Assembly: GCA_021731085.1 (NCBI GenBank)
Contig: JAKFYB010000031.1
Location: 1 to 38,369 of the forward strand
Source: Dehalococcoidia bacterium
Lineage (GTDB): Bacteria > Chloroflexota > Dehalococcoidia > DSTF01 > JACRBR01
Length of the DNA stretch: 38,369 bases
Direction of reading: 5' to 3'
The notes under the pieces were generated by a model, which was given only the letters and a program-made list of their open reading frames with translations, did no database searches and was not told where the DNA came from. Each line of letters starts with the position of its first letter. Position 1 is the stretch's first letter. A program made the translations under genes and the position numbers. Of this stretch, positions 2,827 to 32,982 are shown piece after piece.

Positions 2827-3765
2827 ATGAGTGCGCAGAAGATGGGGTTGGGGCGGGGGCTTTCGGCTTTGATTCCGGCGGCGGCGGATACGTCGTCGGG
2901 GGAGCCTGCGGCTGGGGTTGGGCCTCCTGATGATGGTTCGCGAGCTGGTGGGGTTCCGACGGGGATCTTTACGGTGGATATCGATCTGATTGTGCCGAAT
3001 CCGGATCAGCCTCGCGTGCGGTTTGAGGCGGAGCGGTTGGAGGCGCTTTCGGAGAGCATCCGGCAGCACGGGGTGTTGCAGCCGGTTGTGGTTTCGAGCG
3101 TGCCTTCGGGGACGGGGATCACGACGTACCAGTTGATCGCGGGGGAGCGGCGGTTGCAGGCGGCGCGGATGGCGGGCGTCGAGCGGATGCCCGTGGTTGT
3201 GCGGGAGGCGGCCGGCGCGGAGCTGTTGGAGATCGCGCTGGTCGAGAACATGCTGCGCGAGGATCTGAATCCGATCGAGGAGGCGCAGGCGTTCCAGCGG
3301 CTGAACGATGAGTTCGGGTTGAAGCAGGATCACATCGCGAAGCGGCTGGGCCGTTCGCGGGGGTCGATCACGAACTCGATGCGGCTATTGTCGTTGCCGG
3401 CGGAGATCCGGGAGACGATCGTTTCGGGGCAGATCAAGGAGAGTCACGCGCGCGCGCTGCTGTCGATCGAGAACGAGCGCGAGCGGATGGATGTGTGGCG
3501 GAAGATCCTGTCGGATGAGTTGACGGTGCGACAGGCGGAGGAGATCGCGAAGTCGCTGAAGGATGTTTCGGGATCGCGGGCGCCGATCCGGAAGCGGCCG
3601 AACCGCGTGGATGCGAATGTCCGTGCGATCGAGGATGATCTGCGGCACGCGCTGGGGGTGCCGGTGTCGGTGCGGAAGTCGGCATCGGGGTCGGGGACGG
3701 TGGTGTTGCGGTTTCATTCGGAGGAGGAGTTGGAGGGGATACTTACGAAGGTTGTTGGTTCTTGA
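2827..3765 (+). CDS. parB: Chromosome-partitioning protein ParB/Spo0J
   Basis: ParB binds parS sites near the replication origin, hydrolyses CTP, slides along DNA and stimulates ParA. The 312-residue protein begins with GLGRGLSALIP, the N-terminal ParA-contacting peptide typical of chromosomal ParB. The CTP-binding/ParB-nuclease-like domain covers about 48-130, with GERRLQAAR at 107-114. The ENMLRE box is at 140-145, a central HTH domain spans about 150-210, and a C-terminal dimerisation segment lies about 265-312. No parA is adjacent, which is unusual; repeats and a cyclase-family gene lie upstream and an EEP protein downstream. I noticed no parS-like TGTTTCACGTGAAACA in the window. Codons mostly end in G or T. 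Confidence 0.93.
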   Translation: MSAQKMGLGRGLSALIPAAADTSSGEPAAGVGPPDDGSRAGGVPTGIFTVDIDLIVPNPDQPRVRFEAERLEALSESIRQHGVLQPVVVSSVPSGTGITTYQLIAGERRLQAARMAGVERMPVVVREAAGAELLEIALVENMLREDLNPIEEAQAFQRLNDEFGLKQDHIAKRLGRSRGSITNSMRLLSLPAEIRETIVSGQIKESHARALLSIENERERMDVWRKILSDELTVRQAEEIAKSLKDVSGSRAPIRKRPNRVDANVRAIEDDLRHALGVPVSVRKSASGSGTVVLRFHSEEELEGILTKVVGS

Positions 3766-4258
3766 TCCTGAAGGCCACGAAGGCCACGAAGGGATCGAAG
3801 GGGTTAGAAAACACAGAGACACAGCGGATCGATCTAGATCGTCGTGAGGTTCTGTTGGCGCTGTCGCATGAAGGTGCGGTAGTGGACGACCAGGGCGCAG
3901 CGAGCGGCGGCCCCTACGCGGAGATTGGTGGCTCTGTCGCATGGGGGTGCGCTGTCGCATGGGGGTGCGGTGGCGTAGAACGAAGATTCTTCGCTTCGCT
4001 CAGAATGACGTGATTTGGGTTCTGCGGCGCTGTCGCATGTGGATTCGGACATGAGCGGAGAGTGCGGCGGAGCTGAAGCTCCGCTAGTACAGGTGTCGGA
4101 TGCACTGTCGCGTGATGCTGCGGTGGTAGCCGGCGAGGGCGGCCACGCAGGGCCGCCCCTACAACGGCGGTGCTGTCGCATCTGGGGATAACGCGCGGGC
4201 TGGAAAGCCCGCGCTCCGTGATTGAGGGAGCTTCGGCAACAAGCAGTGGAGGTGATCT
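3766..4258 (+). repeat. Repeat mosaic in a 490-bp gap: H, A, linkers, E, C, D, E, D
   Basis: No gene is seen. Directly after the parB stop comes a short tandem of GGCCACGAA units (3773-3790), then A (3806-3830), linker (3851-3870), an E-type element ending CGGCCCCTACG (3890-3920), two linkers (3931-3943, 3950-3962), C (3981-4010), linker (4021-4040), D GCGGAGCTGAAGCTCCGC (4066-4085), a degenerate linker (4102-4114), E GGGCGGCC...GGCCGCCCC (4137-4160), linker (4169-4182) and D CGCGGGCTGGAAAGCCCGCG (4193-4212). The gap ends with a strong ribosome-binding site, GGAGGTGATC at 4248-4257. Confidence 0.75.
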
Positions 4259-5050
4259 ATGGCTTCGGTGAAGGTGGCTACGCTTAATTTGTTTAATCGG
4301 ATGGGGGAGTGGGGGCTGCGGGCGCCGTTGGTGGTGGATCAGTTGGAGGGGTTGTTGCCGGATGTGATCGGCCTGCAGGAGGTCGATATGGTGCTGGACC
4401 AGGGGATGTGGATCAGCAAGCAGGTGAATCAGCGGTTGCCTGGTGTACCGCATTACCGGATCAAGCATGCGGTTAATCCGGAGCAGCGGGCGTACTTTCA
4501 TGGTATCGCGACGCTTTCGCGGATCGGGTTTGGGTCGCACGACATTTTGGACATGATGACGCATGAGCGGGTGGCACAGCGGATGATGTTCATGTGTGGG
4601 CAGCGACCCTTCTACCTCATTAATACGCATCTGCACTTCCCACCGGCGGCGTCGCAGGATCGTGTGGATCAGTTGGAGCGGTTGCTGGAGTGGCACGACC
4701 GGACGTCGGGCGGGGACGGGCTGCCCCTGGTGATTCTCGGCGATTTCAATGCGTACGCGGTTGCGCCGGACGGGATGCCGAATGCGGGCAAGCCGGAGGC
4801 GGCGGTGACGCTGATGAAGTCGCGGTTCCGGTCGGCGGTGGAGGTGGCGTTGGGGTCGGAGCCGGAGAAGACGTGGTCGACGCCGGTGAATACGTACGAC
4901 CCAGATCCGCATGGGACGCTGGACTACATTTTCGTTTCGGAGGAGTGGAAGGTGGAGGACGCGGGGTTGGCGTTCGACAAGGCTGCGCCGCACGACGGGA
5001 AGTTGTTTCCGTCGGATCATTTGGGGTTGTTTGCGGTGCTTTCGTTGTAG
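4259..5050 (+). CDS. Endonuclease/exonuclease/phosphatase (EEP) family protein
   Basis: A 263-residue member of the metal-dependent EEP superfamily, which includes exonuclease III, DNase I, sphingomyelinases and inositol phosphatases. All signature residues are visible: Asn10 (TLNLF), Glu41 (LQEVD), His124 (NTHLH), Asp162 and Asn164 (GDFN), Asp222 (LDYIF) and the SDH motif with Asp253 and His254. No signal peptide or extra domain is present, so a cytoplasmic phosphodiesterase is likely, but the substrate (nucleic acid or a small phosphoester) cannot be told. GGAGGTGATC ends one base before ATG4259, and its GGAGG core is 6 bases from the start, an almost ideal Shine-Dalgarno match. The gene stands alone between two long repeat mosaics, and its codons mostly end in G or T. 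Confidence 0.88.
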   Translation: MASVKVATLNLFNRMGEWGLRAPLVVDQLEGLLPDVIGLQEVDMVLDQGMWISKQVNQRLPGVPHYRIKHAVNPEQRAYFHGIATLSRIGFGSHDILDMMTHERVAQRMMFMCGQRPFYLINTHLHFPPAASQDRVDQLERLLEWHDRTSGGDGLPLVILGDFNAYAVAPDGMPNAGKPEAAVTLMKSRFRSAVEVALGSEPEKTWSTPVNTYDPDPHGTLDYIFVSEEWKVEDAGLAFDKAAPHDGKLFPSDHLGLFAVLSL

Positions 5051-5547
5051 TCCGGACGGGCGAGAAAAAACACAGAGGCACAGAGGCACAGAGGATCGAT
5101 CTGGATCTTCGGTGAGGTTCTGGCGGCGCTTACGCATGTTGCACCTCACCCCCGGCCCCTCTCCACGTCGTGGAGAGGGGAGCTCGGACAATGTCTGTTG
5201 GCGCTGTCGTCGTGCGGCGGTGTTGTTCGGCGAAGATTCTTCGGCTTCGCTCAGAATGACGGGATTGGGGTTCTGTCGGCGCTGTCGCCATTCGTGACCA
5301 TTTGGCCGACGAGGGCGCGGCGAGCGGCGCCCCTACATGATGTTGGTTCGCGCTGTCGCATGATGCCGCGGTGGAGAGCGGAGTAGATTCTTCGCTGCGC
5401 TCAGAATGACGGGATTGGGGTTCTGTTGCCGCTGTCGCATGGGGCGGCCGTGCTAGGCGAGGACTGAGCGGAGCTGAAGCTCCGCCGCTACTTCCCGCCG
5501 ACCTCATTGCTGTTCCCGCCCGCGCTGGCCCCGCTGTCGCGGACAAC
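5051..5547 (+). repeat. Repeat mosaic in a 500-bp gap: A, F, C, E, C, D joined by linkers
   Basis: No gene is seen. Order: A (5068-5092), linker (5118-5138), F element (5141-5185, with an inner CCCCTCTCCACG/CGTGGAGAGGGG hairpin), linker (5193-5212), C with one extra G (5231-5261), linker (5271-5290), E (5309-5336), linker (5349-5363), C (5384-5411), linker (5421-5441), D GCGGAGCTGAAGCTCCGC (5468-5485). The segment about 5199-5341 has the same module order as the insert in the radical SAM gene at 6926-7068. Confidence 0.8.
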
Positions 5548-7626
5548 TCAGGTGATGGAGAACATTTCTATGGGGCGGATTAGGCCTTCGCGGGGCTTTT
5601 TGGGTTTGCCGGCGGCTTCGAGTTTGAGGTCGAGGCGGTCTAGGCAGTCTTCGGCGTTTTGGTTTTGGACGCCGCAGACGTTGCATGGGTCTTTGTGGCA
5701 GTCGGCGGTGGTTTGGGCGTTGAGGGTGCGCATCCATTCGGCGCGGAGGTAGGACTCGGTGACGCCGATGTTGATGTGGGACCATGGAAAGTGGCCGAAG
5801 GGTTCGGGTTGGCGGTAGGCGTAGAACGCGGGGTCGACGCCGGTTTCTTCGAAGGCCTGGAGCCAGCGGTTCCAGTCGTAGTGCTCGTGCCAGGCGTCGA
5901 AGCGCGCGCCGAGTTCCCACGCGCGGTGGATGGCCTTGCCGAGACGGCGGTCGCCACGGGAGAGAACTGCTTCCAGGAGCGAGTGCTCCGGATCCTCCCA
6001 CGTGAACTGTACGCCGATCTTTTTGAGGTGATCGCGGAGGTAGTGGTGTCGGGCGCGGAGGATGCCGGGCTGTTCCTGGACGGCGTACTGGAACGGCGTG
6101 TGGGCTTTCGGGATGAAGTTTGATGTGCTGACGCGAACGCGCGCGCGGCCGCCGTGGTAGCGGCGGCCGATCTCTTTCACTTTCTTGGCGAGCGCGACGA
6201 TACCTTCGATGTCTTCGTGGGTTTCTGTCGGCTGGCCGACCATGAAGTACATCTTGACGTTGGTCCAGCCCTGGGCGAAGGCGTTATCGACGGCGGTGAA
6301 GAGATCGTCGTCGGTGACGATCTTGTTGATCGTCATGCGGAGGCGTTCGGTGCCGGCCTCCGGCGCGAAGGTGATGCTGTGCTTGCCGCGCTGGGCGACG
6401 AGTTCGCTGATGCGGACGGAGAAGCTGTCGACGCGCATGCTCGGGAGGGAGATCGTGAGATCGTCGCCGAACTCTTCACGGAGGCCTTCGGCGATCTCGA
6501 CGATGCGTGAGTGGTCGGTTGTGCTGAGCGAGACGAGGGAGAGTTCGTCGTAGCCTGTGTTCTCGCGCAATTCTTTGGCGGCGGCGACGACTTCTTCGGG
6601 ATCGCGTTCGAGGCGCGGTCGGTAGATGATGCCGGCCTGGCAGAAGCGGCAGCCCTGTGTGCAGCCGCGCTGGATCTCGATCGCCATGCGGTCATGCACG
6701 GTCTGGAGGAAGGGGACGATAGGTTTGGTTAGGGGTGGAGGGAGTTGTTGTACGAAGCGCTTGGTTACGCGCTTTGGGAGCCAGTCTTCGGTTGGTGCGA
6801 CGATCTTGATGCTGCCGTCTTCGTTGTAGACCGGCTCGTAGAAGCGTGGGTTGTATGTGCCCCAGATCTTCTGCAGCCGCCGCATGAGATCGATCCGCGA
6901 GGAGTTGTCATGAATCGGCGTCTCGGTGGCGCTATCGCCTGTGGGCGCGGTGATGGTACTGCTAGATTCTTCGCTTTGCTCAGAATGACGTGACCCCACA
7001 CTCTTCGCGCTGTCGCGAGCGGCATTGGACGTCGACGACGAGGGCGCGGCAAGCAGCGCCCCTACATGGGACTGTTTCCAGTTTCTTACGGTGTCTACCA
7101 CGTCGAGGATGGCTTCTTCGCCGTCGCCCATAACGAAGACGTCGATGAAGTCGGCGAGGGCGTCGGGGTTGAGGGCGCCGGAGCCGCCGCAGATGATGAG
7201 GGGGTGGGTTTCGTTGCGATCGGCCGCCAGCACCGGGATGCCGGCGAGATCGAGCATGTTGAGGATGTTTGTGTAGGTGCCCTCGTAGGAGAGGGAGAAG
7301 CCGAGGATGTCGAACTCGCTGATGGGATGGCGGGTTTCGAGGGACCAGAGGGGGACGTTCTCGTCTCGCATGATCTGTTCGAGGTCGGTCCAGGGTGCGT
7401 AGACGCGTTCGGCGAGCATGCCATCGCGGCGGTTGATGATGTCGTAGAGGATGCCGATGCCCATGTTGGACATGCCGATGTCGTAGAGGTCGGGGTAGGC
7501 GAGGGCGATGCGGAGGTCGCAGGCGTCCCAGGCTTTGGTGGTGGAGTTCCATTCGCCGCCCGTGTAGCGGGCGGGTTTTTGGACACGTGGGAGGATGTGG
7601 TCGATGTTTACGGTTGGCATTGTCAT
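5548..7626 (-). CDS. B12-binding-type radical SAM protein (TIGR03960-like) with in-frame repeat insert
   Basis: A 692-residue radical SAM enzyme. An N-terminal cobalamin-binding-like region (about 30-185, with [14 protein letters not shown] and GDGEEAILD) precedes a radical SAM core whose 4Fe-4S site is C322xxxC326xxC329. The C-terminus has a further Cys cluster ([11 protein letters not shown]). The layout fits the TIGR03960 family; its reaction is not established, so I assign none. Residues about 186-243 (DNA 6898-7071) are unlike the family and consist of translated repeat modules ([10 protein letters not shown] and [11 protein letters not shown]), added without breaking the frame. ATG7626 or ATG7620 begins the family-like sequence (MPTVNIDH); longer in-frame extensions run into repeats. 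No clear ribosome-binding site precedes it. The downstream neighbour on this strand is the repeat mosaic. Confidence 0.87.
6926..7068 (+). repeat. Repeat composite (linker - C - linker - E) inside the radical SAM coding sequence
   Basis: On the plus strand this reads linker (about 6926-6943, GGCGCTATCGCCTG), C module (6963-6990), linker (7010-7020, CGCTGTCGCG) and E module (7038-7066, ending GCGCCCCTACATG). Orientation and order match the intergenic composite at 5199-5341. It contributes about 48 residues to the minus-strand protein with no stop codon. Confidence 0.85.
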
Positions 7627-7827: not shown

Positions 7828-10735
7828 CTACGGGCACCTCCTTGGGCCGAATTGGCGGGCGGCAGCGAAGAGGTCGGCGATGGTTACGGCGCCGTCGCGG
7901 TTGATGTCGTGCTGTGCGCTGTAGGGTCGGAAGATGTGGACGGCGATGCGGAGCATGTCGCCGACGTTGACGCGTCCGTCGTTGTTGAGGTCGGCGGTCG
8001 GCGGTTGGTGTTGTTGTGTTGGTCGCTGTTGGTGGGACGGATGTGTTGGTTGCGGTGTTGACGGGCGTATTTGTGGGCGTGTGAGTCGCCGCCGGGATGG
8101 GCGTGTTGGTTGATGTTGGTGGAACCGGCGTGTTTGTGGTGGTTTGGGTTGGCGTGAGGGTTGATGTGGGCGGAACCGGCGTGTTCGTTGGTGTGTGAGT
8201 TGCTGTCTGTGGGACTGCGGTGTTTGTTGGCGTTGAGGTTGGTGGGAGCGGCGTGTTGGTAGCCGTCGCCGTTGGTGGTAGGGGCGTGTTCGTTGGCGTG
8301 TGAGTTGCCGTCGGTGGGACGGGCGTGTTTGTCGGGGTGTTGGTTGCAGTGAAGGTCGCGCTTGGTGGAATGGGCGTGTTGGTAGGCGTGTGCGTTGTGG
8401 TGCTAGTGGATGTCGGCGCGAGGATGGTGTTTGTTGCCGTCGGTTGGTTCGGGGTGTTGGTAGCGGTTGGCGCGATTGGCGTGCTGGTCGGAGTTTCGGT
8501 CGGTGGTGGCGTGGCTGTGCGTGTCGGCGTCGCCGTTGGTTCCGGCGCGGGACAGGAGGGATCGATGGGCGTTAGGCCCGTCCATGAGGGCTGCGTGTCG
8601 GTCGCTGGGGAGTTGCTGATGTTCGTTTGGTCAGATCCGTCTGCGTCCATCAGGTAGATCTCGTAGTTACCGTCGCGGTTGGTAACGAATGCTAGCTGGG
8701 TTCCGTCGGGCGAGAACTCTGAGGCGAAGTCATCGAGCGCGTTGTTTGTGAGACGGGTCTGGTTCGCGCCGTCGTCGGCGTCCATCACATAGACCTCGTT
8801 GTTGCCGTCGCGTGTGCTTGCGAAGGTGATCTTCGTACCGTCCGGCGACCACTGTGGAATGTTGTCCATGGCGACGTTGTTCGAGAGTCTCGTCGGATTC
8901 GTACCGTTGGCATTCATCACATAGATTTCCGCCGCGAGAGTGAACCAGTCACGGTAGGCGACGAAGGCGATTTTTGTGCCGTCGGGTGACCACGCCGGGA
9001 ACTCATCGTGAAAGTCGCCGTCCGCGCCGTTCGTCACGTTGATGACGTTGGAGCCGTTGGCGTTCATGACGAAGATGTCGTAGTTCTCGCCGTCGCGGTT
9101 GCTGGAAAACGCGATCTTTGTGCCGTCGGGTGACCAGACTGCTGTGTCGTCGAGAAAGGCGTTGTTTGTGAGGTTGACGACGTTTGAGCCGTCGGCGTCC
9201 ACAACGTAGATCTCGCGATCGTTGAGTCCACCGCGGCTTCGCGTGAAGACGACCTTCGTGCCGTCGGGCGACCAGTCGGGGCGATAGCTCTGGACGGGGT
9301 GGGCGGTGTTCGTGAGGCAGGTCGGGGCTGCGCCGTCGCCGTCCATGACGTAGAGATCGAACTGGCCCCCAGCATCGCGATCGGTGGTGTAGACGATGCG
9401 CCCGAGGTTTTCGGTCGCGGGCGTGCTGGTTGGCGTTGGGGCGACGGGAGTGTGTGTTGGCGTGTGCGTCGCTGTGGGTGCGGTCGTGTTAGTGGCGGCG
9501 GGTGTGTTGGTTGGGGTTGCGAGCGGCGGGATGGAGCAGTTGACGTCGCCGCAGTGGAGAATGGCGAGATCGGTTCCCGAGGCTGCGTAGAGCGACACTG
9601 CGGGGCGTCCGCTCGCGTCGAGCACGATGGATGTGGCGCCATGGACGGAGCCATTTCCACCGGCAGCCGCGGCCAGGACGTGGCTTTCGTCTCCCCCGGT
9701 GCAGGCAGGATCGTTGCAGTGGATGACGTACGTCTGGTTGTGTTCGCGGTAGTAACTGATCACGGGGTTCGCGTCGTCGTCGATGGCGAGCCCAGGGGCG
9801 CTGTTGAAGGAGACATTTCCGGAGGTGAGCGTCTGGAAGGTATCGCCGCCGGGCGCGCAGTTGGGGTCGTCGCAGCGGGCGAGCGCGATCTGCGTTAGGC
9901 CATTGACGTTGACGTTGTAGGCGATGACAGGGTTGCCGCCGACGAGCTTGATAGCGGTGTGGCGACCGGCCATCGCACCGTCGAGGGACTGGACGCTTTC
10001 GTCTCCGCCCGCGCAGTTGAGGTCGTTGCAGTGGAGCAAGCGTAGGCCGTCGGCGCCGCTGTATGCGATGACAGGAAAGCCGGCGGCGTCGAGCGTGATG
10101 CTGTTCGCGGCAGTTGGTTCTGGTTGGACGATGAAGCTCGGGTCGTTGGTGAGTGCAGTGCAGTTCGTGTTGGCGCAGCGTGCAATCTGGAGGCCGTTCT
10201 GGCGGAAGACGATGACGGGGAGATCGCCGGCTGCGAGGACGTGGCTCGAATAGAGTTCGCAGCAGCCCGTGACCGGCGTGACGAGCGACTCGTCGTTGCC
10301 GTCGCAGTTGGCGTCGTTGCAGTGGAGGACGTTGATGCCGCCGTGCAAGAACGTGATGATCGGGTTGCCCGCAGAGTCGAGGGACAGAGAGGGGTTGGTT
10401 ACGCCAGCCCCGGTCGCAAATAGAGTCTCGATGCTGTCGTCGCCTCCAGCGCAGTTCGCGTCGTTGCAGTGGAGTAGACGGATCTGGTTGGCCAACTCGC
10501 CGGGCCCGCTTTTCTTGAATGCGACGACTGGAAATCCGTCGGCATCCAGCTTCATGCTTGACTCTTCGCCGATGTTGTCGACTGGGTGCGGGTCGGGGAA
10601 GGTGAGGGTGTTTTCGCCGATGGCGGCGGCCGGAGGGGCGTCGTGGCGTGCGAGTAGTGCTGCCGTCAGGGCCAGGGCTGCTAGTGTCGCTAGCGGCAGC
10701 AGCACGAACGACCGACGATTTAGTTGACGAGTCAT
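7828..10735 (-). CDS. Secreted double beta-propeller protein with PT-rich linkers and a frameshifted C-terminal dockerin
   Basis: A large exported protein, about 966 residues if the frame is restored. NRRSFVL followed by a hydrophobic stretch suggests a Sec or twin-arginine signal. Residues about 45-400 hold seven repeats with a Cys-x4-Cys motif (HCNDANC), probably a seven-bladed propeller with disulfides. After a Pro/Thr-rich linker come six PD40/TolB-like blades ([10 protein letters not shown], about 440-720), then a long Pro/Thr linker (about 725-910). A type I dockerin with two calcium loops ([12 protein letters not shown] and [12 protein letters not shown]) follows in another frame. The frame break coincides with a tandem duplication of GGTCGGC at 7989-8002; deleting one copy restores one continuous frame to the TAG at 7828-7830. 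As read, the main frame runs on through unrelated sequence to 6980. GGGAGG precedes ATG10735. The ligand is unknown. Confidence 0.8.
7989..8002 (+). repeat. 7-bp tandem duplication causing the dockerin frameshift
   Basis: GGTCGGC occurs twice in tandem (7989-7995 and 7996-8002), followed by GGTTGGT, so it belongs to the GG-phased heptad type. One copy would give the in-frame junction Thr-Pro-Thr-Ala-Asp-Leu-Asn-Asn on the minus strand. Confidence 0.85.
8003..8550 (-). repeat. Low-complexity Pro/Thr/Asn linker-coding region
   Basis: The minus strand encodes degenerate repeats of the type [13 protein letters not shown] over about 180 residues, joining the second propeller to the dockerin. Such linkers are flexible and often O-glycosylated in secreted proteins. 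Repetitive coding DNA of this kind is also prone to slippage. Confidence 0.8.
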
Positions 10736-11679: not shown

Positions 11680-11982
11680 GACGGGTCTTTTCCGAAAACA
11701 CAGAGGCACAGCGCACCGCGTCCGGGGCACAGAGGATCGAGTTGGGCCTGGGTGAGGTTCTGTTGGCGCTGTCGCATGGGGCACCTCACCCCCGGCCCCT
11801 CTCCACGTAGTGGAGAGGGGAGCTCTATCGGGAGATGTGTGGCGCTGTCGCAGGGTGGGGGCCTCACTGCTGACGTGACGGTCGCCGTCGGTTTCGTATC
11901 TCACGGCATGCAAGGCGCCGCTTGCCGCGGCCTCGCTGACGACGAACAATGCGCGCAACTTGCGTTCGAGAGGAGCACTACC
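11680..11982 (+). repeat. Repeat mosaic A - linker - F - linker in a 300-bp gap
   Basis: A module with an internal GC-rich interruption (11695-11738), linker with TGAGGTTCTGTTGG in front (11752-11777), F element (11781-11825), degenerate linker (11838-11853). The F element differs from the one at 5141-5185 by one base in 45. The rest of the gap (about 11860-11966) is unremarkable non-coding sequence. GAGAGGAG at 11968-11975 serves the next gene. Confidence 0.75.
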
Positions 11983-26584: not shown

Positions 26585-27802
26585 ATGGAATTCACCGACA
26601 CACCGCAAGAAGCAGCCTTCCGCGCCGAGATGCGCTCGTTCATCGAGCAGGAGTGCCCTGAAGGCATCCGTCGCCGCGGGTTCCGCGCGGCGTTCGGCGG
26701 CGGCGGCTGGGACGACATCCACATGTCGCGCGAGGAGTACTTCAAGCGCAACGGCGCCTGGGTGAAGAAACTCGCCGACCGCGGCCTCATCGCTCCCGCC
26801 TGGCCGAAGGAGTACGGCGGCGCAGGCCTCTCCGTCATGGAGCAGTTCATCTTCACGCAGGAGATGTCGCTGTCGGGCGCGCCGCGCGGCGGCAACTTCG
26901 GTATCGGCACCGGCTGGGCGGGCCCGACGATCATCCTCTACGGCACCGACGAGCAGAAGCAGAAATACCTCACGGGCATCATCAAGGGCGATGACGTTTG
27001 GTGTCAGGGCTTCAGCGAGCCCGGCGCCGGCAGCGATCTCGCCAACGTGCAGACGAAGGCGGTGAAAGACGGCGACGACTACATCGTCAACGGCCAGAAG
27101 ATCTGGACCTCCGGTGCGCACGTCGCCAAGTACATGATCCTCCTCGCGCGCACCGACCCCGATGCGTCGAAGCACAAGGGCATCAGCTACTTCATCGTCG
27201 ATATGAAGACGCCGGGCCTCACCGTCCGCCCGCTCGTCAACATGGCCGGCAACCACGACTTCAACGAGGTCTTCTTCGACAACGTCCGCGTCCCGAAGGA
27301 GAACATGATCGGCGAGGAGAACCGCGGCTGGTACGTCGGCACGACGACGCTCGACTTCGAACGCAGCGGCATCGCGACCAGCATCTCGCACACGCTGATG
27401 GTCAAGGACCTCGTCGACTTCATCAAGGAGAACAAGGGCACCGGCGTCATCACCGAAGATGCGGGCCTCCCGAACGAACTCGCCGACCGCATGATCGAAG
27501 CCGCTGTCGAAGAAAATCTCTGCACAATGGTGATCTCGATGCAGAACCGCGGCCTCGTGCCCAACAAGGAGTCGTCGATCGCGAAGCTCTTCTCGTCGGA
27601 GCTCGACGTGCGTATCTCGCGCACAGCGATGAAGGCGCTGGGGCTGTACGGCCAGCTGCGGACGGGTAGCGAGTACGCCGCCGCCAACGGTCGCGTCGAA
27701 AGCACCTACCTCTACGCGACTACATCGACAGTGGGTGGCGGTACGAGTGAGATTCAGCGCAATATCATTGCCAGCCGCGGGCTGGGTATGCCGCGAGCAT
27801 AG
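26585..27802 (+). CDS. Acyl-CoA dehydrogenase paralog 1
   Basis: A 405-residue FAD-dependent acyl-CoA dehydrogenase, oxidising an acyl-CoA at the alpha-beta bond. CQGFSEPGAGSDLANVQTKA (140-159) and IWTSG (173-177) form the FAD and substrate site. The medium-chain-type Glu position near the C-terminus is Gly (VGGGTSEIQ), but Glu259 in LDFERS aligns with the helix-G catalytic Glu of isovaleryl- and long-chain enzymes. The N-terminal loop is longer than in the other four paralogs (FGGGGWDDIHMSRE). It follows the TetR gene by 9 bp. A D hairpin lies in the gap to paralog 2. The substrate is unknown; branched, steroid-side-chain or long acyl chains are candidates. Confidence 0.95.
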   Translation: MEFTDTPQEAAFRAEMRSFIEQECPEGIRRRGFRAAFGGGGWDDIHMSREEYFKRNGAWVKKLADRGLIAPAWPKEYGGAGLSVMEQFIFTQEMSLSGAPRGGNFGIGTGWAGPTIILYGTDEQKQKYLTGIIKGDDVWCQGFSEPGAGSDLANVQTKAVKDGDDYIVNGQKIWTSGAHVAKYMILLARTDPDASKHKGISYFIVDMKTPGLTVRPLVNMAGNHDFNEVFFDNVRVPKENMIGEENRGWYVGTTTLDFERSGIATSISHTLMVKDLVDFIKENKGTGVITEDAGLPNELADRMIEAAVEENLCTMVISMQNRGLVPNKESSIAKLFSSELDVRISRTAMKALGLYGQLRTGSEYAAANGRVESTYLYATTSTVGGGTSEIQRNIIASRGLGMPRA

Positions 27803-27816
27803 GCAAGGTGCCGGAG

Positions 27817-27835
27817 CGCGGGCTTTCAGCCCGCG
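27817..27835 (+). repeat. D hairpin between acyl-CoA dehydrogenases 1 and 2
   Basis: CGCGGGCT - TTC - AGCCCGCG, an 8-bp stem with a 3-base loop and no T-run. The same element recurs in the next two gaps of the array. Confidence 0.8.
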
Positions 27836-27892
27836 TGGGTTGAGCAAGAACAGAGTCTGTAACGCAGGGACGATCGAGTAAGGAGAGTCGAA

Positions 27893-29074
<1,182 letters not shown>

Positions 29075-29089
29075 CCACCTGAGCAGGAG

Positions 29090-29108
29090 CGCGGGCTTTC
29101 AGCCCGCG
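29090..29108 (+). repeat. D hairpin between acyl-CoA dehydrogenases 2 and 3
   Basis: CGCGGGCT - TTC - AGCCCGCG, identical in its 19 bases to the element at 27817-27835 and placed at the same distance after the stop codon. Confidence 0.8.
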
Positions 29109-29209
29109 TCGTCGGCCGAGAAGAAACACCAAAGCAAGAGAACCCGCGCCCGCCTCGGCGGACGCTACGAAGAACACTGAACGACCAACGCAGAGGAGAG
29201 ACGAGAACC

Positions 29210-30391
29210 GTGGACTTTAACGACACGCCAACAGAAGCAGCATTTCGGACCGAGGTCCGGAAGTTCATCCAGAGCGAAGCCCCCAAGCCCCAGAAAGGCC
29301 AAACGGCAACAGAAGCCCTCATGGGCAACTGGCAGGCCAACCAGGAGTGGTTCAAGAAGCTCGGTTCCAAGGGCTGGATCGCCCCCGCTTGGCCGAAAGA
29401 GTACGGCGGCGCGGGCATGACAACCGTCGAGCAGTTCATCTTCAATGAGGAGATGGCGCTCAACAAGGCACCCCGCCCGATGCACATGATCATCGGACTT
29501 GGCATGGCCGGCCCGACACTGATCGTCCACGGCACGGACGAGCAGAAGCAGAAGTTCCTTCCCGGCATGCTCGCCGGCAACGACATCTGGTGCCAGGGTT
29601 ACAGCGAGCCCGAGTCCGGTTCCGACCTCGCATCGCTGAAGACGCGCGCCGTCCGCGATGGCGACGACTACGTGATCAACGGCCAGAAGATCTGGACGAC
29701 GCTCGCCCACATGGCGAACTACATGATCCTGCTCACGCGCACCGACCCCGACGCGCCGAAGCACCGCGGCATCACGTACTTCATCCTCGACATGAAGACG
29801 CCGGGCGTCGAAGTGCGCCCGCTCTACAACCTCGGCAACAGCCACGAGTTCAACGAGGTCTTCTTCGACAACGTCCGCATCCCCAAGGACAACGTCATCG
29901 GCGAGGAGAACCGCGGATGGTACGCCGCCGTCACGACGCTCGACTTCGAGCGCTCCAGCATCGGCAGCGCCACCGGCATGAAACAGCACGTCGAAGAACT
30001 GCTCGAGTATGCAAAGGCCCACGCAGACGACCCGACGAGCACCCTCAGGACCAACCCGATGCTGCGCTACGAACTCGCCGACCGCATGATCGAGACAGAA
30101 GTCGCCCGCATGCTCTCGTACCGCGTCGCGTCGATGCAGAACCGTGGCCTCATCCCGAACTACGAGGCGTCGTCGCTGAAGCTTTTCTCGACCGAACTGA
30201 ACCAGCGCATCGCCAAGTCGGCCATGCACATCCTCGGCCTGTACGGACAGCTCCACGGCGATGCAGCCCCCGGCAAGGGCCGATGGCTCAGCACCTTCCT
30301 CCGCAGCGCCGCCTACACCATCGAAGGCGGCACATCGGAGATCCAGCGCAACATCATCGCCCAGCGTGGCCTGTCGTTGCCGCGCGACTAG
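29210..30391 (+). CDS. Acyl-CoA dehydrogenase paralog 3
   Basis: A 393-residue acyl-CoA dehydrogenase. WCQGYSEPESGSDLASLKTR (128-147) is the FAD/substrate motif and Glu247 in LDFERS the candidate base. The C-terminal motif is IEGGTSEIQ: a Glu is present one position before the medium-chain-type Glu site, which itself is Gly. This paralog is therefore the only one with an acidic residue close to both catalytic positions. It uses a GTG start at 29210 with GAGGAGA upstream. The 135-bp gap before it holds a D hairpin. Confidence 0.95.
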   Translation: MDFNDTPTEAAFRTEVRKFIQSEAPKPQKGQTATEALMGNWQANQEWFKKLGSKGWIAPAWPKEYGGAGMTTVEQFIFNEEMALNKAPRPMHMIIGLGMAGPTLIVHGTDEQKQKFLPGMLAGNDIWCQGYSEPESGSDLASLKTRAVRDGDDYVINGQKIWTTLAHMANYMILLTRTDPDAPKHRGITYFILDMKTPGVEVRPLYNLGNSHEFNEVFFDNVRIPKDNVIGEENRGWYAAVTTLDFERSSIGSATGMKQHVEELLEYAKAHADDPTSTLRTNPMLRYELADRMIETEVARMLSYRVASMQNRGLIPNYEASSLKLFSTELNQRIAKSAMHILGLYGQLHGDAAPGKGRWLSTFLRSAAYTIEGGTSEIQRNIIAQRGLSLPRD

Positions 30392-30447
30392 CACGCCGTC
30401 CGGAGCGTCCGCCTTCGGCGGGCGTGTTCGTGCACCGGGTAACGGAG

Positions 30448-30514
30448 CGCGGGCTTTTCAGCCCGCGCGGTTGGCGACGAGTGTGGGAAAGTACCCGCGG
30501 AGCCTAAGCTCCGC
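30448..30514 (+). repeat. Two D hairpins between acyl-CoA dehydrogenases 3 and 4
   Basis: CGCGGGCT - TTTC - AGCCCGCG at 30448-30467 and GCGGAGC - CTAA - GCTCCGC at 30497-30514. A third, less regular hairpin CCGCC - TTC - GGCGG is at 30409-30421. None has a T-run. Confidence 0.75.
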
Positions 30515-30553
30515 CATAAAGTTTTGATTGACGCACGAGCGTCCGTGAGTTGA

Positions 30554-31732
30554 ATGCAGTTTAGTTTCACCCCAGAGCAAGAAGCCTTCAGGACCGAGGT
30601 CAACTCGTTCCTGAAACAGCACTTGCCCGCGAACTGGGAAGGCGCCGACAACGCCATTGACGAAGGCGACCACGAATTCGGCCGCGAGTTCCTGAAGAAG
30701 CTCGCGCCGAAGAAGTGGATCGCACCCGCGTGGCCTGTCGAGTACGGCGGCCTTGGCATGTCGCTGTGGGACCAGGTGATCTTCAACGAGGCGATGGGGT
30801 ATGCGCGCGCGCCGATCGTCAACACCGCTGCCGTTGGCTATCTCGGTCCGACGATCATCCTGTACGGCAGCGACGAGCAGAAGAAGCAGCACCTGCCCGG
30901 CATCACTTCCGGCGACGTGATCTGGTGCCAGGGTTACAGCGAGCCGAACAGCGGCAGTGACCTCGCTTCCCTGCAGACGCGCGCGGTCAAGGATGGCGAC
31001 GACTGGATCATCAACGGGCAGAAGATCTGGACATCGCAGGGCCACTACGCCGACTGGATGTTCCTCATCGCCCGCACCGATCCCGACGCGCCGAAGCACC
31101 GCGGCATCAGCTACTTCCTCCTTGACATGAAGACGCCGGGCATCTCCGTCCGGCCGCTGATCAACATGGCGGACGGCGAGGGCTTCAACGAAGTCTTCTT
31201 CGACAACGTCCGCGTGCCGTCATCGGCGCTGCTCGGCGAACTCAACCGCGGCTGGTACATCGCCACGACGACCCTCGACTTCGAGCGCTCGGCCATCGGC
31301 GGCACCATGCAGGCGCTCCGCACGCTCGAAGAACTCACGCGTTTCGCCAAGACCGAGAGTGACGGCCGGGGCAAGACGCTCTGGGATAAGCCTCCCGTCC
31401 GCCACGCGCTCGCCGATCTCTGGATCACGTCCGACATCACGAAGCTGTTGTCCTACCGCGTCGTCTCGATGCAGGAGCGCGGCCTCGTCCCAAACTACGA
31501 GTCCAGCATCAACAAGATCCTCACCACCGAGTACGTGCAGCGGCAGCAGCGCGTCGGCATCAGCATCCTCGGCATGTACGGCGGTCTCTGGGGCGAGGGT
31601 CCGTGCGCGAAGCTCCGCGGACGCTTCGCGAAGGCATACGTCGCGACGGTTGGGTCAGCGATCGCCGGCGGCACAACAGAGATCCAGAAGAACATCATCG
31701 CGACGAGGGGCCTCGGCCTCCCGCGCCAATAA
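30554..31732 (+). CDS. Acyl-CoA dehydrogenase paralog 4
   Basis: A 392-residue acyl-CoA dehydrogenase, the most divergent of the five tandem copies: its N-terminus MQFSFTPEQEAFRTEV and the region 80-100 differ, and the C-terminal motif is IAGGTTEIQKNIIA. WCQGYSEPNSGSDLASLQTR (124-143) and Glu244 in LDFERS are kept. The start is ATG30554 without a recognisable Shine-Dalgarno sequence, unlike its neighbours, so translation may depend on coupling or a different start. Three hairpin repeats fill the gap before it. Confidence 0.95.
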   Translation: MQFSFTPEQEAFRTEVNSFLKQHLPANWEGADNAIDEGDHEFGREFLKKLAPKKWIAPAWPVEYGGLGMSLWDQVIFNEAMGYARAPIVNTAAVGYLGPTIILYGSDEQKKQHLPGITSGDVIWCQGYSEPNSGSDLASLQTRAVKDGDDWIINGQKIWTSQGHYADWMFLIARTDPDAPKHRGISYFLLDMKTPGISVRPLINMADGEGFNEVFFDNVRVPSSALLGELNRGWYIATTTLDFERSAIGGTMQALRTLEELTRFAKTESDGRGKTLWDKPPVRHALADLWITSDITKLLSYRVVSMQERGLVPNYESSINKILTTEYVQRQQRVGISILGMYGGLWGEGPCAKLRGRFAKAYVATVGSAIAGGTTEIQKNIIATRGLGLPRQ

Positions 31733-31748
31733 CGAGCATCAAGTAGCG

Positions 31749-31766
31749 GCGGAGCTTCAGCTCCGC
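31749..31766 (+). repeat. D hairpin between acyl-CoA dehydrogenases 4 and 5
   Basis: GCGGAGCTTCAGCTCCGC, an almost perfect palindrome of the GGAGC-type D module. Confidence 0.8.
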
Positions 31767-31806
31767 TCAGTCGCTGACATCAAGCGAATGTCAGCAAAGA
31801 GGAACA

Positions 31807-32982
31807 GTGGACTTCAGGGACTCGACCGAAGACGCAGCATTCCGACAGGAAGTTAAAGACTTCCTGCGGACGGATCTGCCCGCCGATCTCAAGGCGGACG
31901 ATGATGTGATCCTCGGCGTCGGCGTGGGGGAGAACCCACGCGACAAGGACTGGCTCAAGACGCTGTCGAAGCGCGGCTGGGTCGCCCCCAACTGGCCGGT
32001 TGCGTACGGTGGCGCCGGCCTCAGCGTCATGCAGCAGTTCATCTTCAACGAGGAGATGGCACGCGCTGCCGCTCCCCGCCCCAACTTCCTGGCGATAGGC
32101 CTCGCTGGCCCCACGATCATCGTCCACGGCGACGAGGCGCAGAAGAAGCAGCATCTCTCCGGCATCCTTTCCGGCGAGGACTACTGGTGCCAGGGATTCA
32201 GCGAGCCCGGCTCGGGCTCCGACCTCGCGTCGCTCCAGACGAAAGCGACGCAGGACGGCGACGACTTCATCATCAATGGACAGAAGATCTGGACCTCTGG
32301 CGCACACCGCGCCGACCGCATGATGCTCCTCGCCCGCACCGACCCCGACCAGCCGAAGCACAAGGGCATCAGCTACTTCCTGCTCGACATGAAGACGCCC
32401 GGGATCAGCATTCGCCCGCTCACCAACATGGCCGACACGCCGAGCTTCAACGAAGTCTTCTTCGACAACGTCCGCGTCCCCAAGGGCGACCTTCTCGGCG
32501 AGGCCAATCGCGGCTGGTATTACGCGACGACGACGCTGGACTTCGAGCGCAGCGGCATCATCAGCGGCGTCGCGCTCCAGCGTCTCGTCACCGACACCAT
32601 CGGTTACGCGAAGCAGTCGCCGCGCACGGACGGGGCCTGGTCGGCGATCCGTCACGAACTCGCCGAACGGTACATTGAGACCGAGATCTCGATCGCGCTC
32701 TCATATAGAGTCGCGTCGATGCAGGCGAAGGGCATGGTTCCGAACCAGGAAGCGTCGATCACGAAGCTCTTCGGTTCGGAGCTGGCGCAGCGCATCGCCA
32801 AGACAGGCATCAAAGTCGCGGGACTGTTCGGCCAACTGCGCGAAGGTTCCCAGCACGCCGCGCTCGGTGGAAGATTCGAAGGCTGGTACCGTATCGCCGT
32901 CGGCTCGACGCTGGCAGGCGGCACATCAGAAATACAGCGCGGAGTCATCGCGCAACGCGGCCTCGCGCTGCCGCGAGGCTAA
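31807..32982 (+). CDS. Acyl-CoA dehydrogenase paralog 5
   Basis: A 391-residue acyl-CoA dehydrogenase. WCQGFSEPGSGSDLASLQTK (128-147) and Glu247 in LDFERS are kept; the C-terminal motif is LAGGTSEIQRGVIA, with Gly at the medium-chain-type Glu site. The start is GTG31807, with AGAGGA just upstream. The region 26-48 (ADLKADDDVILGVGVGE) is specific to this copy. A small membrane protein and the divergent sixth dehydrogenase follow in the same direction, so the operon probably continues. Confidence 0.95.
   Translation: MDFRDSTEDAAFRQEVKDFLRTDLPADLKADDDVILGVGVGENPRDKDWLKTLSKRGWVAPNWPVAYGGAGLSVMQQFIFNEEMARAAAPRPNFLAIGLAGPTIIVHGDEAQKKQHLSGILSGEDYWCQGFSEPGSGSDLASLQTKATQDGDDFIINGQKIWTSGAHRADRMMLLARTDPDQPKHKGISYFLLDMKTPGISIRPLTNMADTPSFNEVFFDNVRVPKGDLLGEANRGWYYATTTLDFERSGIISGVALQRLVTDTIGYAKQSPRTDGAWSAIRHELAERYIETEISIALSYRVASMQAKGMVPNQEASITKLFGSELAQRIAKTGIKVAGLFGQLREGSQHAALGGRFEGWYRIAVGSTLAGGTSEIQRGVIAQRGLALPRG

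Follow-up and report, generated by a model that had tools for sequence, protein, structure and literature searches.

How does a conserved enzyme gene come to hold, in frame, a string of repeat modules that otherwise lies between genes? The question is raised by a radical SAM gene on the minus strand (5548..7626) of contig JAKFYB010000031.1 from the Dehalococcoidia bacterium assembly GCA_021731085.1, analysed here over its full 38,369 nucleotides (hereafter the window). A sequence-only reading of this DNA had proposed that a composite of two hairpin modules, C and E, each preceded by a linker, was inserted in frame into the gene. Our analysis agrees, since an unbroken open reading frame (ORF) of the TIGR03960 family runs through the composite, while homology to relatives stops at one side of it and restarts at the other. 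We observed the insertion, the identity of its repeats, empty sites in relatives, the kept frame, homologous composites elsewhere in the genome and a transposase gene flanked by E. The reading that we prefer, with a probability of about 0.72, is that a composite repetitive extragenic palindrome (REP) arrived as one unit, mobilised by a REP-associated tyrosine transposase (RAYT), and entered an exposed loop of the host gene in frame. A conserved enzyme gene entered by a REP composite and left unbroken makes a clean and checkable case.

The gene encodes a B12-binding/radical SAM protein of 692 residues that scores 709.5 bits against TIGR03960, where the curated cut-off is 462.3. The profile alignment is split into two parts (1-179 and 178-605) with only the insert between them; the extra sequence therefore sits at exactly one point of the protein. 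No stop or frameshift results and the catalytic cysteines are intact, as had been stated: C322, C326 and C329, which form the cluster-binding CxxxCxxC motif of radical SAM enzymes, are invariant. Differences from the nearest relative at the three codon positions amount to 0.136, 0.109 and 0.439, a pattern that points to purifying selection on the gene. The branch leading to the insert-bearing protein is somewhat longer at all codon positions.

The alignment with TIGR03960 relatives that the sequence-only reading had proposed was performed, and the insert is missing in all 57 homologues, none of which has another insert at the same site. In a codon-level alignment it is missing from ten of ten Dehalococcoidia relatives, whose homology runs to a WK..H region and resumes at SSRIDLM/PRDEML. 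Another 48 homologues were fetched from named genomes, some of which may repeat among the ten relatives; the 47 that cover the site have 21-22 residues there, as compared to 75 in the insert-bearing protein. An empty site, which the sequence-only reading had suggested looking for in close relatives, was found in the nearest homologue (L016/L049), from a groundwater Chloroflexi metagenome-assembled genome of the same genus. With every one of the 57 homologues lacking it, the same-genus one included, the alignments strongly support that the insert entered in frame and in this lineage only. Without the 52 inserted residues the protein would measure 640 residues, against 638-639 in relatives aligned from residues 2-3.

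The insert itself comprises about 156 bp or 52 codons (residues 187-238) at 6913..7068, or equally 6909-7064, on the minus strand, its ends being set by the paired CATG described below; its lack in all relatives, the edges of similarity to other composites and low model confidence support it. The proposed insertion thus stands, although its extent had been put at 6898-7071 and 58 residues (186-243), which needs trimming. Read on the plus strand, antisense to the host gene, it consists of a left spacer (6921..6964) with a degenerate GGCGCTGTCGCATG core (GGCGCTATCGCCTG), the C hairpin (6965..6989), which is identical to its consensus at 24 of 25 positions and has its tag on the minus strand, a C-E spacer of 50 nt (6990..7039) with core GCGCTGTCGCGAG, and the E hairpin (7040..7065). 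Across the whole 156 bp only one of six frames is stop-free, and that is the frame in use; the C module alone is open in four of six frames, as had been noted. Both edges carry CATG, at 6909..6912 and at 7065..7068, exactly 156 nt apart, and the bases following the CTAC of E vary among E copies. The pair may reflect a 4-bp target duplication, microhomology or chance; four bases are weak evidence, and the target-site duplication that the sequence-only reading had suggested looking for was not shown. Rfam gave no match within the window, and the insert had no match in a plasmid collection.

Blast comparison of the insert with its own genome (3.58 Mb in 52 contigs) showed matches to segments of it at 47 places, four of which are intergenic and align over nearly the full composite at 71-76% identity. 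In all, the genome has four to five intergenic copies of the complete composite. An intergenic copy lies on the plus strand of the window at 5199..5341, as had been described, and is 72% identical over the composite (query positions 48-189). When six composites are aligned, agreement climbs at about 6921-6931 and drops just after 7065, where CTAC represents the GTAG-tag end of E; it is 0.24-0.37 outside these edges and mostly 0.5-0.95 inside. Similarity of the insert to other genomic composites spans about 6921-6925 to 7065, and at three sites C and E are separated by 50, 50 and 51 nt. A hairpin screen of 526 kb of sampled DNA from the same genome recovered 43 C, 61 E (of two sub-types), 22 D and 16 F hairpins. 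In the 410 kb that were scanned first, reversed sequences gave 0-1 hits per hairpin type versus 10-43 in the real DNA. The shared order, spacing and edges, together with these near-zero controls, identify the composite as a recurring structure rather than a chance juxtaposition. Of 28 pairs of neighbouring hairpins, all types taken together, 24 are arranged head-to-tail, two head-to-head and two tail-to-tail, and spacers in the arrays are mostly 49-58 nt. This differs from published REP dimers, which are predominantly head-to-head with head-to-tail pairs negligible or under-represented (PMC3733652), a predominance of inverted dimers being a usual but not a defining trait of GTAG REPs. The spacer-hairpin arrays are often immediately preceded by one of two other kinds of short intergenic repeat.

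The hairpins can be set beside known REP super-families: E is a GTAG-tagged REP, and C resembles CGTC repeats. GTAG REPs consist of a 5-13 bp stem with a loop of 2-20 nt and, on one side, a GTAG that stays unpaired (PMC3733652). On its minus strand E reads GTAG-GGGCGC(8 nt)GCGCCC, hence an unpaired GTAG next to a 6-bp GC stem, and it occurs in many dispersed, mainly intergenic copies: 56 at up to three mismatches, with none in the reversed control. CGTC repeats are described with an 8-9 bp stem, a 4-5 nt loop, a tag that is often TGTC or CCTC instead and a short unpaired tail that is CCA in most (PMC3733652). The minus strand of C reads CGTC-ATTCT-GA-GC-AAA-GC-GA-AGAAT, and of its 43 copies 21 have the tag CGTC and 18 TGTC (39 of 43 together). 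The stem opens with ATTCT/AGAAT, giving the A-T and then T-A pairs at the foot that are typical of CGTC repeats. It has five pairs, a 2x2 G.A mismatch, two pairs and a 3-nt loop, so that the arrangement becomes 8+5+8 only when mismatches are counted, and in most copies the tail is CT[TA] instead of CCA. Because of the G.A mismatches, the short loop and this tail we classify C only as CGTC-type. An exact 25-mer of C was found in 31 of 400 sampled Chloroflexota genomes, with no hits in the reversed control. These genomes span many families, and the richest of them (G348) contains 117 copies; some genomes have two copies of the 25-mer close together in inverted orientation (e.g. G552:C85 and G396:C1). 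Searching the literature for the repeat sequences themselves turned up nothing of relevance.

When ORFs that span modules were scanned for protein families, a single RAYT (Y1 transposase) gene was identified in the genome, at L119:4145-4681 (G000:C16:19944-20480). A first search with the Y1_Tnp profile had missed it, probably since an in-frame E splits the match. The gene has one E copy 138 nt upstream of it and another 19 nt downstream, and contains a third E in frame, the core of which is identical to that of the E in the radical SAM gene (24 of 24 nt). The encoded protein has the motifs MPNHMH (HUH) and QYIEDNP (catalytic tyrosine) and matches Pfam Y1_Tnp at 31.2 bits (cut-off 23); its score against the NCBIfam RAYT model NF047646 falls short of the cut-off (57.8 vs 80). 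Of the RAYT motif NP(L/V)(R/K)xG (PMC2817692) the sequence NPLKWA fits the first four positions but not the final glycine. Among related RAYT loci, the segment between HUH and tyrosine shares at least 16 nt with the locus's own flanks in 17 of 35 cases, one of which (L213) is a locus artefact, as compared to 18 of 1190 mismatched pairings. This correspondence indicates that REP and transposase go together, the hairpin stem changing along with its RAYT. Many RAYT relatives were seen to carry their own cognate REP at the HUH-Tyr position. An in-frame REP between HuH and Tyr has already been described for TnpA_REP subclass 2.4 (PMC6006769), hence we dropped it as a novelty.

How exceptional is a hairpin inside a gene? 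Of the 142 hairpins, five lie at least 45 nt inside genes, whereas genes cover about 82% of the sampled DNA; the figures are approximate, as genes were called crudely by simple codon usage and the stretches were chosen for holding modules. The depletion is nevertheless far beyond gene-caller and sampling uncertainty. The five are C and E in the radical SAM gene, the single E in the RAYT gene, and one E each in an enolase-superfamily gene and a ribonucleotide reductase gene, all in frame and located in linkers or loops. The enolase-superfamily (MR_MLE) case, L128:890-915 in the minus-strand ORF 93-1325, adds about 25 residues between the N-terminal and barrel domains that none of the five closest homologues has. 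In the ribonucleotide reductase large chain, the E at L167:2999-3024 (minus-strand ORF 2895-5630) separates the TSCPD domain from the C-terminal Cys-rich tail. Other module-spanning ORFs were rejected as intergenic or spurious by a Pfam test; they comprise modules upstream of genes for a HAD hydrolase, an HD-domain phosphohydrolase, adenylosuccinate lyase and gamma-glutamyltranspeptidase, as well as ORFs without a family.

According to the reading we prefer, the composite of spacer, C, 50-nt spacer and E, with both tags facing the same way, would have arrived as one single-stranded DNA unit. Its E hairpin would be the end recognised by the genome's RAYT, which would cleave near the GTAG-tagged hairpin by means of its HUH and tyrosine residues and transfer the strand into the target. 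Other TnpA_REP enzymes cut in vitro at CT or CA dinucleotides adjoining the REP (PMC8266576). The landing site is the loop that links the B12-binding-like N-terminal domain to the radical SAM core, and the insertion probably survived because its length is a multiple of three, its frame is free of stops and the exposed loop would tolerate disordered residues. Several points weigh against this reading. The RAYT as mover of the composite is what we infer, CGTC repeats are without a known transposase (PMC3733652) and the edges of the insert show no secure target-site signature. Moreover, identity between the complete insert and other composites reaches only about 71-76%, hence the event is not very recent.

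The paired CATG allows for an insertion that needed no dedicated transposase, in which template switching or end joining at this microhomology captured a copied composite. The exact distance of 156 nt between the two CATG speaks for such a capture, but a 4-nt match is weak and the right edge coincides with the GTAG tag of E to the base, which is where an element whose end is defined by its hairpin would stop; we consider this route unlikely. Nor do we think it probable that the composite was built up stepwise, with one REP (E or C) and its spacer coming first and the second hairpin being added in place by slippage or unequal recombination, as in tandem spacer-hairpin arrays elsewhere. The genome has many head-to-tail arrays with spacers of 49-58 nt, and other genes hold single in-frame E copies, both of which would suit a stepwise origin. 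Against it, the left and right edges of the intragenic composite coincide with those common to intergenic composites, and two in-frame events would be required where intragenic insertions are rare. The proposal that the composite, rather than single modules, is what moves thus draws support from the order, spacing and edges of the intergenic composites, with stepwise assembly at the site as its competitor.

A selected functional domain or RNA regulatory hairpin, as opposed to tolerated repeat DNA, is a very improbable explanation of the extra segment. The cores of both hairpins, E and C, stay close to consensus as though they had been preserved, but every relative lacks the insert, and both structure and folding argue otherwise. 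An AlphaFold2 model of the host protein, built with 22 sequences, has a mean predicted local distance difference test score (pLDDT) of 74 and a predicted template modelling score (pTM) of 0.78. Residues 189-241, predicted as a loop that joins helices 170-192 and 242-252, have a pLDDT below 50 (about 24-31) and no secondary structure is modelled across 193-241, with the rest of the protein modelled as folded. The 160-nt composite strand folds no better than its shuffles (z 0.56), upon which a large compound hairpin of the whole composite was dropped, and the C hairpin alone likewise folds no better than shuffles. In all likelihood the host protein remains functional, and the added peptide need not have a function. 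To an assembly or binning artefact that misjoined the composite into the gene we give hardly any credence despite the 52-contig draft, since over its length the insert does not exceed 76% identity to any other composite of the genome and so is no collapsed repeat, the frame is kept, the insert-free length is within a codon or two of the ancestral one and the same gene continues in both flanks.

In-frame REPs in genes, RAYT genes included, are already known; what is unusual here is the mixed CGTC and GTAG head-to-tail composite with a shared spacer. Bacterial interspersed mosaic elements (BIMEs) and REP doublets forming hairpins (REPINs) are likewise composite units of REPs and spacer, probably mobilised by RAYTs, in which the REPs have alternating (inverted) orientation, whereas the tags of C and E face the same way. 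GTAG and CGTC REPs occur mostly between genes but also in frame in unrelated genes, where clusters add 43-82 residues in some (PMC3733652). Our insert shares with these the tagged short palindromes in frame within a gene and differs in that two super-families are mixed head-to-tail. The comparison to Rickettsia palindromic elements (RPEs) made by the sequence-only reading is apt, as C carries the CGTC/TGTC tag of the super-family that, according to Di Nocera et al. 2013 (PMC3733652), includes two Rickettsia conorii elements, RPE-4 and RPE-6. Those too are CGTC-tagged palindromes in frame in protein genes with empty orthologues, of which there are 57 here; the phylum is another one, our insert pairs its CGTC-type hairpin with a GTAG REP and the likeness is by description. 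By analogy the insert would work like an RPE, and we make no claim of membership in that family. Similar to the subclass 2.4 REPtrons (PMC6006769), our RAYT has cognate REPs on either side, the foot of their stems being made of three G-C pairs, and contains the in-frame REP between HuH and Tyr; by this likeness in features it is a candidate member of that subclass.

CGTC repeats had not been reported from Chloroflexi (Di Nocera et al. 2013, PMC3733652), and the present composites extend CGTC-type repeats to Chloroflexota. A tentative possibility is that CGTC and GTAG hairpins moved together on a common spacer, the RAYT of the GTAG hairpin also spreading the CGTC hairpin, by which the pair may reach intergenic DNA and, in frame, genes. 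If true, riding with GTAG REPs would be a possible answer to the spread of the transposase-less CGTC repeats. Repeat DNA here supplies new protein loop sequence in a phylum without such reports in the literature examined.

The window contains other repetitive features. The two short intergenic repeat types that precede the spacer-hairpin arrays are the CACCTCACCCCCGGCCCCTCTCC palindrome and AAACACAGAGGCACAGAGGATCGA, at positions 5146-5182 and 11783-11820 and at 2572, 3809, 5068, 7678 and 11696. A direct repeat of at least 300 nt (1-300 and 1365-1664) is 89% identical and suggests a duplicated gene segment at the start of the window. Low-complexity and about 150-nt periodic repeats at 8070-8540 and 9430-9510 and at 9672-10474, in a region with a large minus-strand ORF, suggest a repeat-rich surface protein. 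Finally, 26585-32982 holds five consecutive tandem homologous genes of about 390 codons, with 60-78% DNA identity between stretches, whose shared GG(T/C)SEIQRNIIA..RGL ending looks like that of acyl-CoA dehydrogenases.
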